DNA of 5,278 bases, from assembly GCA_015229045.1 (NCBI GenBank), contig JADGCJ010000207.1, positions 1 through 5,278 of the forward strand. The letters are read 5' to 3'. The notes beneath the pieces are model-generated. The model searched no databases, had not been told where the DNA came from, and worked only from the letters and a program-made list of their open reading frames with translations. The DNA comes from Magnetococcales bacterium. Lineage in GTDB: Bacteria > Pseudomonadota > Magnetococcia > Magnetococcales > DC0425bin3. The stretch's first letter is position 1, and every line of letters begins with the position of its first letter. This document shows, one piece after another, positions 91 to 5,278 of this stretch. The translations under genes and the position numbers were made by a program.

Positions 91-124
91 TGGGGGATGA
101 ATCCCCCAAACCCCCTCTTTTTTT
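90..124 (+). terminator. 9-bp hairpin followed by a T run, possible terminator
   Basis: Bases 90-98 and 101-109 form a perfect 9-bp stem (TTGGGGGAT / ATCCCCCAA) around a 2-base centre. On the plus strand this is followed by a C run and then seven T at 118-124. The T run begins 8 bases after the stem, which is further than in a standard intrinsic terminator. Read on the plus strand, it would stop transcription arriving from a gene left of the window before it ran antisense into purD. On the minus strand the same stem lies directly after the purD stop codon and may help end purD transcription. Confidence 0.4.
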
Positions 125-1419
125 CAATTTGTTTTTTTTCGTTGTTTTTGATGATCGATGGCTCGATAACCAATATCGCGCCGGAAATGAACATCCTGCC
201 AGCGAACAGGCTCCACAGCCTCATAGGCACGTTGCTGTGCTGCCCTGGCATCGATGCCAAGGGCCGTGACGCCCAACACCCGGCCCCCCTGGGTGACAAT
301 CTTGCCATCCTGCTGGCGGGTTCCGGCGTGGAAGACCATGGTATCGGGGAGCTGTGCGGCCTTGTCCAACCCGGTGATGGGCAAACCTTTGGCGTAGGGT
401 CCGGGGTATCCACCGGCAGTCATCACCACACACAGGGCAGTGCGTGGATCCCAGGTGATGGTCATGTCACGCAACGAACCACAGGCCGCAGCCTCCAGAA
501 GCGGCACAAGGTCGGATTGCAGGCGCATCAGGAGGGGTTGTGTCTCGGGATCGCCAAAACGGGCGTTGAACTCCAGCACACGCATGGTGTCGCCATCGAT
601 CATCAAACCGGCATAGAGAAGGCCACGATAAGGGCGTCCCTCGGCAGCCATGGCGCGAACCGTGGGGAGCATGACCTGTTCCATGGCCATGTCGTGCAGA
701 CGGGGCGTCAGGACCGGGGCGGGCGAGTAGGCGCCCATGCCGCCGGTGTTGGGGCCGGTATCGCCCTCGAAGACCGCTTTGTGATCCTGGGAACCGGCCA
801 GGGGCAGAACCCTCTCCCCATCCACCAGAGCCATGAACGAGACCTCCTCCCCGGCGAGAAAATCCTCCACCACGACCTGGTCACCGGCATCGCCGAACTC
901 CCGGGACACCATGATGCGCTCCACGGCATGCACGGCATCGGCCACGGTCGGACAGACAATGGCCCCCTTGCCGGCAGCCAGCCCCGATGCCTTGACCACC
1001 ATGGGTGCCGGGCGTCGACGCACATGTTCCAAGGCGGCGGTGGGATCGGTGAACAGATGGTAGGCCGCCGTGGGGATGCCATATTTGGCAAACAACCCCT
1101 TCATGAAGGCCTTGGATCCTTCGATGGCCGCCGCTGCCCGATTGGGACCAAACACCTTCAAGCCTGCGGCCTGGAACTGATCAACGATGCCAAGCACCAG
1201 AGGGGCTTCGGGTCCGACAACGGTCAGGTCGATCTTTTCCTGTAGGGCAAACCGGCACAGCCCGGGCAGATCCTCCGAACCGATGGCCACGCAGGTGGCC
1301 ACCTGGGCGATACCCGCGTTGCCCGGAGCGCAAAACAGGTGCGTGACGAGAGGTGATTGGGCGATCTTCCAGCACAGGGCGTGTTCCCGCCCGCCGTTGC
1401 CAATGACGAGTATCCGCAT
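124..1419 (-). CDS. purD: Phosphoribosylamine-glycine ligase (GAR synthetase)
   Basis: The enzyme joins glycine to 5-phosphoribosylamine using ATP, the second step of de novo purine synthesis, in the cytoplasm. The 431-residue protein matches the usual bacterial length of about 430. The N domain opens with MRILVIGNGGREHAL. Central ATP-grasp motifs include GSKAFMK (101-107), VVKASGLAAGKG (141-152), the loop around DHKAVFEGDTGPNTGGMGAY (212-231), and the family signature RFGDPETQ (287-294). The C-terminal domain runs to VRWQDVHFRRDIGYRAI (405-421). An in-frame ATG lies 14 codons upstream at 1459-1461, but the start at 1419 is preferred: family proteins begin at MRILVIG, and AAGGAT sits about 9 bases upstream of it. 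The tail after residue 421 is basic (QKQRKK), encoded by a T-rich stretch of the plus strand. The gene is divergent from aat, and no purine operon partner is visible. Confidence 0.97.
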   Translation of the reverse strand: MRILVIGNGGREHALCWKIAQSPLVTHLFCAPGNAGIAQVATCVAIGSEDLPGLCRFALQEKIDLTVVGPEAPLVLGIVDQFQAAGLKVFGPNRAAAAIEGSKAFMKGLFAKYGIPTAAYHLFTDPTAALEHVRRRPAPMVVKASGLAAGKGAIVCPTVADAVHAVERIMVSREFGDAGDQVVVEDFLAGEEVSFMALVDGERVLPLAGSQDHKAVFEGDTGPNTGGMGAYSPAPVLTPRLHDMAMEQVMLPTVRAMAAEGRPYRGLLYAGLMIDGDTMRVLEFNARFGDPETQPLLMRLQSDLVPLLEAAACGSLRDMTITWDPRTALCVVMTAGGYPGPYAKGLPITGLDKAAQLPDTMVFHAGTRQQDGKIVTQGGRVLGVTALGIDARAAQQRAYEAVEPVRWQDVHFRRDIGYRAIDHQKQRKKTN

Positions 1420-1823
1420 GGCGCTTGCATCCTTGAAAAACATTTGAAAAACGATGACCATCCATGCCGGGCCGCAATGAGGCCATGCCCGCTTCGAGTG
1501 GCGTCCTGTTCAAGGCGCCACGATAGGACGAACAGGCTGGAGATTGCAAAGTCAAAAGTCATGGTAATTGTTCAGCACCCGGTAACTCGGGGTCCAGGGA
1601 GCTGGCTCCCTGGCGGGTCAAGGGCAGAGCCCTTGCGGGGTTTGAGCCCCAATAAAGTCTTTCATGTCACCCCTTTTTCCCGATCACGAAAAAACGACGT
1701 ATTTCAAAATAGACGCGGTTCAAGGTCCGATTTTTCAAGCATGCCAATTGCAAATGCGATTGCCCTGGCTGAATGGTTACAAGTCATATTCGTTTGAGTA
1801 CAGTTGGGGATCGATCCAAATCC
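1420..1823. other. Divergent intergenic region purD / aat
   Basis: This 404-bp spacer holds the 5' ends of purD (leftward) and aat (rightward). I see no convincing gene in it; the reading frames here are short and do not look like proteins. It contains a 7-bp inverted repeat (1505-1511 / 1530-1536) in the purD leader, a GC-rich repeat cluster at 1589-1650, and an AT-rich 6-bp inverted pair TTTTTC / GAAAAA at 1674-1679 and 1688-1693. Promoter matches are weak. A TTGACT box on the minus strand (1550-1555) lacks a good -10 at the right distance. On the plus strand, TTGCCC (1760-1765) with CATATT (1785-1790) has a 19-base spacer. None is called as a feature. Confidence 0.6.
1589..1650. repeat. 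GC-rich multi-hairpin repeat, second copy of the family
   Basis: There are three stems in a row. The first has 9 bp, CCAGGGAGC (1594-1602) with GCTCCCTGG (1605-1613), around a 2-base centre. The second has 7 bp, CAAGGGC (1619-1625) with GCCCTTG (1629-1635), around AGA. The third has 4 bp, GGGG (1637-1640) with CCCC (1647-1650). The first two stems have exactly the geometry of the pair at 67-109 read on the minus strand (9 bp with a 2-base centre, then 7 bp with a 3-base loop, with GGGT-type spacers), but with different bases. It lies between divergent genes, so it is not placed to terminate either one. It is best read as an extragenic palindromic repeat. Confidence 0.75.
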
Positions 1824-2534
1824 ATGCCCGTATTTCGACTGCCCAGGGAGAACCATTTTCCGCCGGTGGAGTTTACCGAACCCAATGGCCTGCTGGCCGT
1901 CGGAGGTGATCTCTCCGTGCATCGGTTGCTCGCGGCTTATCGCTGCGGCATTTTTCCCTGGTATTCGGCAGGTGAGCCCCTGCTCTGGTGGAGTCCTGAT
2001 CCACGCATGGTGTTGAAACCGGCATGGTTCCACCTGCCTGGGAGTTTAAAAAAAACCTTGCGCCAGGGGCGTTTTCGTCTGACTCTGGATCACTCCTTTT
2101 CCGAGGTGATTCGGGCGTGTGGCGAGGTTCGCCAGGAAAAAGGCACCTGGATCACCGGAGAGATGGTGGCGGCCTACATCCGTTTGCACGAAATCGGTTT
2201 TGCCCACTCTGCCGAGGCCTGGAGTACGGACACCGATCCTTCCCGACTTGTGGGCGGGGTCTATGGGGTGGCCATCGGCGGCTGTTTTTTTGGCGAATCA
2301 ATGTTTTTCAAGGAGGCAGATGCCTCCAAGTGTGCCTTTGCTTTTTTGGTGGAAACCTTGCGGCAAAAGGGTTTCACCCTGATCGATTGTCAAATGCACA
2401 CTGCCCATCTGGCCCGGTTCGGGGCACGGGAAATTTCCCGTCGACAATTCCTTGCCGAATTGAAAGAAGGATTGATGCGGCCGGTCCCCCAGGAGTCCTG
2501 GGGAGGGGTTGCGGACCCTTTGTCGTCGAAATAG
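1824..2534 (+). CDS. aat: Leucyl/phenylalanyl-tRNA-protein transferase
   Basis: The enzyme transfers Leu or Phe from charged tRNA to the N terminus of proteins that begin with Arg or Lys. This marks them for the ClpS/ClpAP protease in the bacterial N-degron pathway, in the cytoplasm. The protein has 236 residues, close to the 234 of E. coli. Conserved blocks appear in family order: EPNGLLAVGGDL (19-30), CGIFPW (41-46), WWSPDPR (55-61), GTWIT (107-111), GFAHSAEAW (125-133), GGVYGVAIGGCFFGESMF (144-161), LIDCQ (186-190) and HLARFGAREISR (195-206). Asp188 in LIDCQ corresponds to the Asp reported as catalytic in E. coli Aat. The frame is open from an ATG at 1773, but family proteins start close to the PNGLL block, so the ATG at 1824 is chosen. 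Its ribosome site is weak (GGGGA, 13 bases upstream), so the start is less certain than the function. It appears monocistronic. Confidence 0.96.
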   Translation: MPVFRLPRENHFPPVEFTEPNGLLAVGGDLSVHRLLAAYRCGIFPWYSAGEPLLWWSPDPRMVLKPAWFHLPGSLKKTLRQGRFRLTLDHSFSEVIRACGEVRQEKGTWITGEMVAAYIRLHEIGFAHSAEAWSTDTDPSRLVGGVYGVAIGGCFFGESMFFKEADASKCAFAFLVETLRQKGFTLIDCQMHTAHLARFGAREISRRQFLAELKEGLMRPVPQESWGGVADPLSSK

Positions 2535-2638: not shown

Positions 2639-4876
2639 ATGAGTGTTCAATCATCTGCGACCTTATCCCAGCCTGATCGACCATTGCGCCGGGCGGTGCT
2701 GCTTCCTACGCTGCTCTCCGGTCTCATGATCGGCATCGACAACATCGGGTCGAGTTTGGCCGTCGCCTCTCTGCTGTTTTCGGGGGCGCTGGCGTCCGGG
2801 TTGCAGCTGGGCATTCAGGTGCTTTTGTTGAGTTCCGTCATCATGGCTGTCGGGTTGCGCAGCGCTCAACCCAACGCCATAGGCCTGGTCCAGGAGACGG
2901 GTATTGCCATCCTGTCTGCCGCCCTGGTGGCCATGTCTGGCCGTCTGGATTACATGGGGGAGGGGGCGCGGGTTGCCACGGCTTTGGCCATTATCGGCGG
3001 GGCCTCCCTGGTCACCGGCGTGGTGTGTGTTGTTGTCGGCTGGCTGCGGCTTGGGGGGTTTGCCCGTTTCATTCCCTTTCCGGTGGTGGCCGGTTTCCTG
3101 GCCGGATCGGGGTGGATGCTGGTGGAAGGGTCTCTCACCATGCTGGCCGGAACCGGCGCCAACTCTGATGGTCATCCGGTGCTTTTGCATCGGTTGGCTC
3201 AGTGGGACACGTTCAGCAAGGTCGGTGTGGCTTTTCTGTTTGCCGGGGGGTTGACGGTCCTGTTGCGGCGTTTTTCGCATCCCATGATTTTACCGGGGTA
3301 TTTGTTGGCATCGGGAGCGGTTTTTTACCTTGTTCTCTTTCTGGGAGGCCTGGATCCCGAACAGGTTCGTCAGGCCGGTTGGTTGCCTCAAACCATGGCT
3401 CATTCGACTGCTGCGGTCTCCCTGGGTTGGACTTCCCTGCCTGCACTGATTGTCTGGCCGGAAGTTTTCGTGGCACTGCCCTCCGTTTTGTCTGTGGCTC
3501 TGTTGAACCTTCTTGGCACGTTGCTCAACTCCAGTGGCCTGGAACTGGCCACCGGGCGGGAACTGGATGCCAATCACGAGCTGAAAGTGACGGGCGTGGC
3601 CAACCTGCTGGTCTCTCCGTTTGGCGGGGCGTCGGGATTCATGGGGCTTGGCGTGACACTGCTGTCGGAGAAGATGGGTGCGACGACCCGTTGGACCGGG
3701 GTTGCCGCTGCAGTGGCCACGGCACTGGGTTTGCTGTTCGCTGGTCCTTTGATTGGCGTCATGCCGGTATTTTTGACCTCGGGCATCGTCCTGTTTTTGG
3801 GGCTTGAACTTCTTCAGGAGTGGCTGGTGATCACCTGGCGCAGCCTGCCGCATACCGAGTGGGTTGTGGTTCTCCTGGTGGTTTTGGTGACCGCTGCTGC
3901 CGGGTTCATCAATGGTCTTGCCTTGGGTGTGGCCGTGGCCATGGTGCTGTTTGTCGTCAACTATGCGCGGTTGCCGGTCTTGCGCAGCGTCACCAGCGGG
4001 GCGGAGCAGCGCAGCAGCGTGGATCGCTCTCTGGAGGCCACCCACTATTTGCAAAAGCATGGCGACTCCATCGTTTTGTTGCAAATCCATGGTTATCTCT
4101 TCTTTGGCAGTACGGTCGCCATCGTTGATTGGATTGTGCAACGCATTGCCGCCACGGGGGGCTCCCCGCTGCGTTATGTGATCCTGGACATGCGGCGGGT
4201 GCAGGGTGCCGATTCCTCGGCGATGGCCTGTTTTGCCAAAATTCGCAAATTGGCCGAGGGGAGCGGTTTTTTGGTCTTTTTCAGCCAGCTCTCTGCGGAT
4301 TTGGTGTATTTGTTCAAGCATTCCGGGTTGGGATTTGCGGAAGGCGGCGTTTTTTCCCTGGAACCCGATATGGATCATGCCCTGGAGCGTTGCGAAACGC
4401 ATCTCCTGGCCAACTCTCCCAAATCGCTGCTTGTCGATGCGGAGTTGCAACACCATTTCGAGACCATCATAGGGCTCCATCCCCGTATTCCCGACATGGT
4501 GAAAATCATGGATCGTCTCTCTTTCTCGGCGGACGTTCCCTTGATTCGCCGTGGGGATCTGGCCGACTCCTTCTATTTTCTGGAGAGCGGTAGTGTCAGG
4601 ATCTCCGTGACGCTCCCTGACGGGCGCCTTTTGCGTCTGCGCACCATGACGTCGGGGGCCATCGTGGGCGATGTGGGGGTTTGTCTGGGGCAGGTCCGCA
4701 CCGCAGATGTTGTTGCCGACAGAACAGTCGTGGCCTACCGCCTGTCGGTCACCACCTTGGAATATTTGGAAAAACAAGACCCTGATCTTGCAATCCTCTT
4801 TCATCGATTGCTGGCCAGGGCCTTGGCGGAAAAGGTTTTAGGGTCTACTGCGGCGCTGCGTGCTTCCCAGAACTGA
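2639..4876 (+). CDS. SulP-family anion transporter with STAS and cyclic-nucleotide-binding domains
   Basis: This 745-residue inner-membrane protein is a probable secondary anion transporter with built-in regulatory domains; the substrate cannot be read from sequence. Residues 17-445 hold the hydrophobic SulP core with about a dozen membrane segments, including LLPTLLSGLMIGIDN near the start and the NGLALGVAVAMVLFVVNYARL segment at its end. Residues 475-590 form a STAS domain with VILDMRRVQGADSS; Asp525-Ser526 align with the Asp-Ser of anti-sigma antagonists. Residues 618-725 form a cyclic-nucleotide-binding fold with a degenerate phosphate cassette GDVGVCLGQVRTADV (677-691): the usual GE is GD, while the binding Arg (687) is kept. 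The N-terminal pattern fits the SulP-STAS-cNMP group related to yeast YGR125W rather than classical sulfate permeases. An in-frame stop at 2627-2629 makes ATG 2639 the first possible start, although no ribosome site precedes it. aat lies 104 bp upstream. Confidence 0.9.
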   Translation: MSVQSSATLSQPDRPLRRAVLLPTLLSGLMIGIDNIGSSLAVASLLFSGALASGLQLGIQVLLLSSVIMAVGLRSAQPNAIGLVQETGIAILSAALVAMSGRLDYMGEGARVATALAIIGGASLVTGVVCVVVGWLRLGGFARFIPFPVVAGFLAGSGWMLVEGSLTMLAGTGANSDGHPVLLHRLAQWDTFSKVGVAFLFAGGLTVLLRRFSHPMILPGYLLASGAVFYLVLFLGGLDPEQVRQAGWLPQTMAHSTAAVSLGWTSLPALIVWPEVFVALPSVLSVALLNLLGTLLNSSGLELATGRELDANHELKVTGVANLLVSPFGGASGFMGLGVTLLSEKMGATTRWTGVAAAVATALGLLFAGPLIGVMPVFLTSGIVLFLGLELLQEWLVITWRSLPHTEWVVVLLVVLVTAAAGFINGLALGVAVAMVLFVVNYARLPVLRSVTSGAEQRSSVDRSLEATHYLQKHGDSIVLLQIHGYLFFGSTVAIVDWIVQRIAATGGSPLRYVILDMRRVQGADSSAMACFAKIRKLAEGSGFLVFFSQLSADLVYLFKHSGLGFAEGGVFSLEPDMDHALERCETHLLANSPKSLLVDAELQHHFETIIGLHPRIPDMVKIMDRLSFSADVPLIRRGDLADSFYFLESGSVRISVTLPDGRLLRLRTMTSGAIVGDVGVCLGQVRTADVVADRTVVAYRLSVTTLEYLEKQDPDLAILFHRLLARALAEKVLGSTAALRASQN

Positions 4877-4927
4877 GCTGCTAAAACTCCTGGAAGTTTC
4901 CGATCCGTGCAGATAAACTCCGCAGCT

Positions 4928-4973
4928 GGAGGAGTGTCCTGTGTCGGCCTTGTCGGGTCCGTGGATTGATTGA
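4928..4973 (+). other. Strong ribosome site with a 10-codon mini-ORF
   Basis: GGAGGAG (4928-4934) is the best ribosome binding sequence in the window and stands 6 bases before GTG (4941-4943). The frame it opens reads VSALSGPWID and stops at TGA (4971-4973). Upstream, ACTCCT (4886-4891) and ACTCC (4917-4921) can each pair with this site (AGGAGT, 4930-4935), giving two competing ways to mask it. This could be a leader peptide for the downstream gene, or chance. An ATG at 4973 overlaps the stop and opens a longer frame to 5245, but that frame is out of register with the MamI-like gene and does not look like a protein. Confidence 0.25.
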
Positions 4974-5039
4974 TGATCCGATCGTGGCAGGGCCCCGGGA
5001 CGCTGGCAGGCGTTCACACTGAAGAGGAAAAAGCGGATC

Positions 5040-5278
5040 ATGCCGAGCATCATAATCGGGTTGGTGGCCATTTCGCTTGGCCTGTGGGGCTTGTCTGCCT
5101 GGTGGTGGTCGATGGTCGAGTTTTTGCGGGGAGTCGCTCCACTCGCCCTGGTTCTTTTTGGTTTCATAGCCTTGGGAGCCGGTGTGACCCGCCTGCGCGA
5201 GGCGCCGACCCCCTCTGCCCCGGGGAGCGATCACGACGCGGATGAACTCCGTGATCCCTCTCCGCCATCCAAGCCGGT
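5040..5278 (+). CDS. mamI: MamI-like magnetosome membrane protein, cut by window end
   Basis: The frame from ATG 5040 stays open for 79 codons to the window end. It begins MPSIIIGLVAISLGL and carries WWWSMVEFLRG (21-31), followed by a second hydrophobic stretch and then GAGVTRLRE (46-54). There are two membrane helices, about residues 3-23 and 31-50, joined by a short Trp-rich turn. A polar Pro/Asp-rich tail follows from residue 55. The MPS start, the WWWS-x-x-EFLRG turn and the two-helix layout match my memory of MamI, a protein of about 70-77 residues needed for magnetosome membrane formation in Magnetospirillum magneticum AMB-1. AAGAGGA lies about 11 bases upstream of the start. The tail is at least as long as in known MamI, so the protein may be somewhat extended. 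The gene follows the SulP gene after 163 bp on the same strand. Alternatively, it may be a MamI-related small protein in a non-magnetotactic bacterium. Confidence 0.68.
   Translation, partial: MPSIIIGLVAISLGLWGLSAWWWSMVEFLRGVAPLALVLFGFIALGAGVTRLREAPTPSAPGSDHDADELRDPSPPSKP

Follow-up and report, generated by a model that had tools for sequence, protein, structure and literature searches.

A mamI gene without mamH beside a SulP transporter gene: a likely magnetosome cluster border in an uncultured Magnetococcales bacterium

MamI is a small membrane protein involved in building the magnetic organelles of magnetotactic bacteria. The window analysed here, a stretch of 5,278 nucleotides that is a complete contig, derives from an uncultured member of the Magnetococcales related to Magnetococcus sp. 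DMHC-1 and MAG HA3dbin3, and its right-edge gene is a genuine mamI. It is likely that this mamI heads a magnetosome transcription unit without mamH, at a cluster border beside a SulP transporter gene. The presence of mamI without mamH is an unusual arrangement, but one with precedents. The features of the window are as follows:

124..1461, minus strand: purD (TIGR00877, 544 bits against a cut-off of 288)
1773..2534, plus strand: aat, leucyl/phenylalanyl-tRNA--protein transferase (TIGR00667, 199.7 bits against a cut-off of 143.55)
2639..4876, plus strand: SulP-family anion transporter with STAS and cNMP-binding domains (PF00916, PF01740, PF00027)
4883..4919, plus strand: conserved 37-nt element, located with a profile from four relatives' sites, beginning 6 nt after the SulP stop
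5021..5039, plus strand: pre-start stretch GAAGAGGAAAAAGCGGATC with a likely ribosome-binding site, conserved before the mamI of close relatives
5040..5278, plus strand: mamI (NCBIfam NF040963, homologues, purifying selection), its 3' end cut by the contig end

The ATG frame at the right edge (5040-5276) contains 79 full codons and runs open off the end of the window, as an earlier note on this DNA had recorded. That note had also recognized in it a two-helix MamI with a WWWS turn, and both readings were borne out. The product has two hydrophobic stretches, with 19-residue hydropathy maxima starting at residues 4 and 31, and the WWWS turn lies in it, in line with the form expected of MamI (about 70-85 aa, two membrane helices and a W-rich turn); the homologues have 72-84 aa. 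In NCBIfam, the sole family matched is MamI (NF040963), with 95.5 bits against a cut-off of 80 (E 1.3e-27) and residues 1-67 aligned to positions 1-67 of the 69 in the model. In the protein database, in which P0001 is the 80-residue entry for the window's own mamI product, recorded from one contig with a length of 5278, eight non-self proteins match at E <= 1e-3 and are 61-77% identical. Seven of these are Magnetococcus, Magnetococcales or Magnetofaba records and the eighth, P0007, is a nameless record; Mmc1_2268 of Magnetococcus marinus MC-1 is 61% identical and the MamI of Magnetofaba australis 62%. The MamI cut-off is also exceeded by the four closest homologues and by P0006 and P0008. The profile and database search that the earlier note had proposed for the translation thus returned MamI proteins as the best matches. 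The MamI identity is supported because a curated model is matched over its cut-off and the homologues come from Magnetococcales. Pfam, run on the same frame, listed nothing beyond an E1-E2 ATPase match below threshold (E 0.32). PF26391 is listed by the protein database for two MamI proteins, for which the Pfam scan reported no family.

All four closest MamI relatives share a length of 84 residues and the ending ...SKPxxGL(E/G), and in three of the four (L001, L066 and L067) the mamI stop overlaps the start of a mamE-type gene by 4 nt. Judged from this shared length and ending, the window mamI should lack its last four or five residues and the stop codon, and the frame is unlikely to continue into a larger protein. 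Over the first 55 alignment columns, dN/dS between the window mamI and the four closest copies is approximately 0.10-0.12 (0.055/0.55, 0.069/0.56, 0.096/0.96 and 0.081/0.81). When the entire frame is taken, dN is higher, at 0.144-0.19, with a dS of 0.63-1.03, because the tail varies. The gene is under purifying selection, and this low dN/dS together with the family match (E 1.3e-27) shows that it is not a chance frame.

To the left of mamI, the neighbours named in the earlier note, SulP, aat and purD, were confirmed by family models. Relatives of the SulP protein are present in G001 (MAG HA3dbin3; 76% identical), G046 (64%) and G049 (62%), and aat and sulP are adjacent in G001 as well, where the contig ends 16 nt past the sulP stop. 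No match to the queried Mam proteins was obtained in the 17.9 and 19.9 kb around the SulP relatives of G046 and G049, respectively. In G007 and G008, no close SulP relative was found (best 26% and 28%, respectively), and aat has other neighbours there. Since the surroundings of SulP and aat differ among the relatives, this flank looks like ordinary, variable chromosome, which places the cluster border at approximately 4877-4882. Neither of the two collections searched showed a sign of a mobile element: no phage matched 4877-5278, and the seven plasmid records matched by SulP are all below 60% identity.

A chimaeric assembly, in which the SulP and mamI sides come from different places and the organism itself has the ordinary mamH-mamI-mamE order, is considered unlikely. 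The putative junction (4877-4882) does fall between the SulP stop and the conserved element, the window's protein is known from one short contig only, and the end of the G001 contig just past sulP means that no relative shows a sulP-mamI junction. However, the G+C content is even (0.554-0.582 in sub-windows from 4001 to 5250), there is no repeat of at least 16 nt within the window at the junction, and other genomes also have a mamH-less mamI. In addition, both sides resemble the same relatives to a similar degree, with identities to G001, G007 and G008 of 81-86% for purD, 77-81% for aat and 71-78% for mamI. These similar identities, together with the aat-sulP adjacency in G001, argue that the left and right parts belong to one organism.

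The region upstream of mamI contains blocks that are common to the window and to the mamI genes of G001, G007 and both copies in G008, and that align gap-free as a 37-nt element. This element begins 146-172 nt before the start codon in the window and the relatives, and in the window it lies 121-157 nt upstream of the mamI ATG. A profile built from the four relatives' sites only (G001, G007 and G008 twice), with the window left out, has its best site in the window at 4883-4919 with 36.4 bits, followed by 0.5 bits for the next site; the best of 300 Markov-simulated windows reached 18.5 bits. In 125 loci (1.006 Mb), the best further profile site scored 20.2 bits and lies in L070 (MC-1), not before mamI. 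Allowing at most two mismatches, a search of eight genomes found the element pattern at four sites in three of them, all before mamI (once in G001, once in G007 and twice in G008, including the mamH-less mamI copy); as the pattern was designed on these four sites, finding them was expected, and finding nothing else is the result. The pattern is absent from G039, G040, G041, G046 and G049, and read backwards it gave no site. A broader function as a mark of a wider magnetosome regulon was not supported, as the pattern stands only before mamI and is absent from five of the eight genomes. A sigma-70 consensus scan did not report the element, and gave only a 9-of-12 site overlapping the mamI start codon. 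Closer to the gene, positions 5021..5039 share 18 of 19 nt with contig C109 of G008 and 13 of 14 with G007, and likely include the ribosome-binding site.

The region at 4883..4919 is probably the promoter/operator region of mamI, and the mamI unit appears, from these alignments, to have kept its own upstream region while the left neighbours differ. Because just 6 nt separate the SulP stop from an element otherwise seen solely in front of mamI, a cluster border is the best reading of this position; it is probable, and the border is perhaps lineage-specific. The earlier note had suggested a novel cluster boundary; the border is supported, but the word novel is too strong, since mamH is likewise absent at eight of the 52 places with mamI in this order. 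Its observation that the mamH neighbour, a usual but not a defining companion of mamI, is missing was correct, as no MamH is encoded in the 5039 nt upstream of mamI.

These counts come from a search of 48 genomes of the order to which G001 belongs, 45 of which have a mamI match (G015, G019 and G034 have none). The 60 matches comprise 52 stand-alone mamI genes and eight N-termini of proteins of 511-537 aa. The count excludes these eight and also G003, which does not belong to the set and has mamI with mamH upstream. One contig scan gave at least 593 candidate stretches, with five loci among the matches listed, and the counts were taken from the 48-genome search. Directly upstream of mamI, mamH is present in 44 of the 52 stand-alone places (43 by tblastn and that of G020, whose mamI was missed there and recovered separately), with the largest gap, 875 nt, in G001. 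The gene after mamI is of the mamE type in 43 of these 44 places, and in G049 the contig ends 40 nt past mamI. The eight mamH-less places are C109 of G008, C364 of G009, C43 of G012, C59 of G013, C318 of G014, C3 of G016, and C28 and C119 of G044. A MamH family search of G001, G007, G008, G009, G012, G013, G014, G016 and G044 gave no match on the contigs of these eight places. A mamE-type gene follows mamI in six of them, the exceptions being the two of G044, and directly follows it in all four closest copies (G001, G007 and G008 twice). Of the seven genomes with a mamH-less mamI, six have a second mamI with mamH present, and the mamH of G012 is cut by the contig end. MamE is the best family for all four mamE-type proteins that were scored, three of them from mamH-less clusters and one from a standard cluster, but their 329-434 bits stay below the family's cut-off of 800. 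NCBIfam identifies the gene after mamL as MamM in all three cases checked, and the labels mamF and mamL are a reading of the sequence, with no NCBIfam match at E 1e-5. As the MAGs are mostly fragmented, contamination is possible for any single case, including the second copy of G008.

A close precedent is this second mamI of G008 on C109 (L067), which resembles the window in lacking mamH and in carrying the same element, with shared blocks of 16/16 and 18/19 nt. There, mamI is followed by a mamE-type gene, whereas the window contig ends inside mamI, and the left neighbour is not sulP but a divergent 490-aa gene, read as radical-SAM-like. By coding sequence, a grouping of the window mamI with this mamH-less copy was not borne out, and only the upstream blocks lean that way: nucleotide identity is 79% to the mamH-linked copy of G007 and 78% to the mamH-less copy of G008, so the coding sequence does not mark the window mamI as a second copy. 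G009 has mamH in one cluster and mamI in another. Its sole stand-alone mamI lies in the mamH-less cluster C364, and C177 contains mamH, a 142-aa mamE-like frame and mamE-type, mamK, mamF-like, mamL-like and mamM-type genes but no mamI; the MamH of C177 (627.7 bits) and the MamM of C364 (381.4 bits) are both over cut-off. As in the window, mamI is uncoupled from mamH, although G009 is a distant relative (mamI 63% identical) and C364 shows only 1257 nt to the left of mamI. The two G009 clusters (L126:1-8843 and L114:1228-10733) share mamE-type, mamK, mamF-like, mamL-like and mamM-type genes. Compact second units were also found in G013 (mamI, mamE-type, mamK, mamL-like and mamM; L082:9341-14072) and G014 (mamI, mamE-type, mamK and mamL-like; L116:4173-7900). 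On the other side of mamI, these two units have large adhesin-like and TolC/HlyD-like (secretion-like) genes, names that are a reading of the sequence. The window mamI most likely belongs to a second, mamH-less mamI-mamE cluster, comparable to C109 of G008, or to one that lost mamH or forms half of a split pair, the latter as in G009. A mamI that keeps its own upstream region without mamH shows which portion of the magnetosome cluster can be separated. Pairs divided as in G009 open the division of labour between duplicate clusters to testing.

The two extra mamI copies of G044 (L079:6307-6573 and L080:9134-9400) score 84.3 and 88.7 bits, both over cut-off. On C28, the next gene is MamA-like (188.7 of 200 bits), and mamK and a gene read from its sequence as FeoB-like are in the vicinity; the copy on C119 is followed by a gene similar to the MamA-like one. 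These copies, true to the MamI model and with a MamA-like gene in place of a mamE-type gene next to them, lend some weight to the alternative that the window mamI was relocated or duplicated alone, as a stand-alone paralogue that does not precede mamE and perhaps has another job. This is improbable, as the G044 copies are more distant from the window mamI (58% and 64%), whereas the four closest copies, the mamH-less one included, all precede a mamE-type gene, and the strong codon constraint and full family score of the window mamI fit a normal role. For the paralogue with another job that the earlier note had raised, no finding of the analysis gives support in the case of this gene.

Within the Magnetococcales, mamHIE(C) clusters have been described in M. 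marinus MC-1 and 'Ca. Magnetaquicoccus inordinatus' UR-1 (PMC3934378, PMC6783814). These bacteria are of the same order and carry the same mamI gene as the window, but mamH precedes mamI in them and a SulP transporter gene precedes it in the window. According to the available text, the mamHIE unit of UR-1 is separate from mamAB (PMC6783814), and duplicate magnetosome operons are known (PMC6819731). Descriptions of mamI-headed, mamH-less Magnetococcales clusters were not found in titles and the beginnings of abstracts, a weak negative as most subscription journals fall outside this search. In Magnetospirillum gryphiswaldense, reporter measurements ranked a promoter within mamH as the strongest of mamAB, and the available text of that study concludes that it carries mamI and mamE once the first promoter has been deleted; a mamH deletion that took the internal promoter along did not abolish magnetosomes (PMC8547445). 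Since this promoter, rather than the first one of the operon, was concluded to be the main driver of mamI and mamE, a mamI without mamH is workable. Like the candidate in the window, it is a promoter of mamI and mamE independent of the one before mamH, but it lies inside mamH, whereas the putative promoter element of the window is intergenic, before mamI. The 37-nt element is thus a concrete candidate magnetosome promoter for this group of Magnetococcales.

For a mamH-less unit at a cluster border, transcription would probably start at or near the conserved element and run through mamI into mamE. By analogy with Magnetospirillum, MamI would be a two-helix protein of the magnetosome membrane that acts with MamL, MamB, MamQ and MamE, either in vesicle formation or in early magnetite formation. 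A location in the magnetosome membrane and a role in its formation have been published for Magnetospirillum MamI (PMC4902198). Deletion of mamI in AMB-1 is reported to eliminate the magnetosome membrane, and the same deletion in MSR-1 to leave vesicles, some but not all with particles (PMC4902198, PMC7017999); the MSR-1 effect is worded more strongly in PMC8547445. When expressed in mammalian cells, MamI and MamL co-localise and are reported to interact (PMC12730242).

The SulP neighbour of mamI is probably incidental. A single functional unit of SulP and mamI, with the transporter as a magnetosome component co-transcribed with mamI, is highly improbable. The two genes lie on the same strand, 163 nt apart, and a MamI-like domain is fused elsewhere to another anion-transporter family (YeiH/PF03601). 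Yet no mam gene lies near SulP in G046 and G049, the two relatives with readable flanks, G007 and G008 have no close SulP relative, and an element otherwise found only before mamI stands between the two genes. The fusions, a MamI-like N-terminus joined to a larger protein, occur in eight of the 48 Magnetococcales genomes:

L119:7786-9321, MamI-like fusion
L120:3893-5428, MamI-like fusion
L121:5133-6671, MamI-like fusion
L122:2184-3722, MamI-like fusion
L123:6854-8437, MamI-like fusion
L124:4986-6599, MamI-like fusion
L125:6684-8231, MamI-like fusion
L077:9573-11102, MamI-like fusion

The three fusions tested join the MamI-like part to a putative sulfate exporter of the YeiH type (PF03601, over cut-off), and their N-termini score 33-62 bits against the MamI model, below its cut-off of 80. 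The protein database lists both PF26391 and PF03601 for P0010. The fusion of G041 adjoins MamX and MamZ, both over cut-off, and that of G002 adjoins MamX-like (317 of 400 bits) and MamZ. A literature search pairing 'magnetosome' with 'YeiH' found nothing. The idea that MamI, as a small subunit, recruits or regulates anion transporters in the magnetosome membrane, serving the SulP-STAS-cNMP protein here and YeiH-type fusions elsewhere, is very doubtful.

Some further observations concern the surroundings of these genes. Between mamH and mamI of HA3dbin3, a frame of 165 aa (L001:1921-2418) shares 42% identity across 92 residues with a frame immediately upstream of G007 mamH, which was read as a member of a repeated transposase-like family. 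In the window, a perfect 24-nt inverted repeat is located at 31-90, just beyond the purD stop. Its 22-nt core, absent from G001, G040 and G049 at up to one mismatch, is dispersed in other genomes, with one site in G046, two in G008, five in G039, 13 in G007 and 80 in G041.
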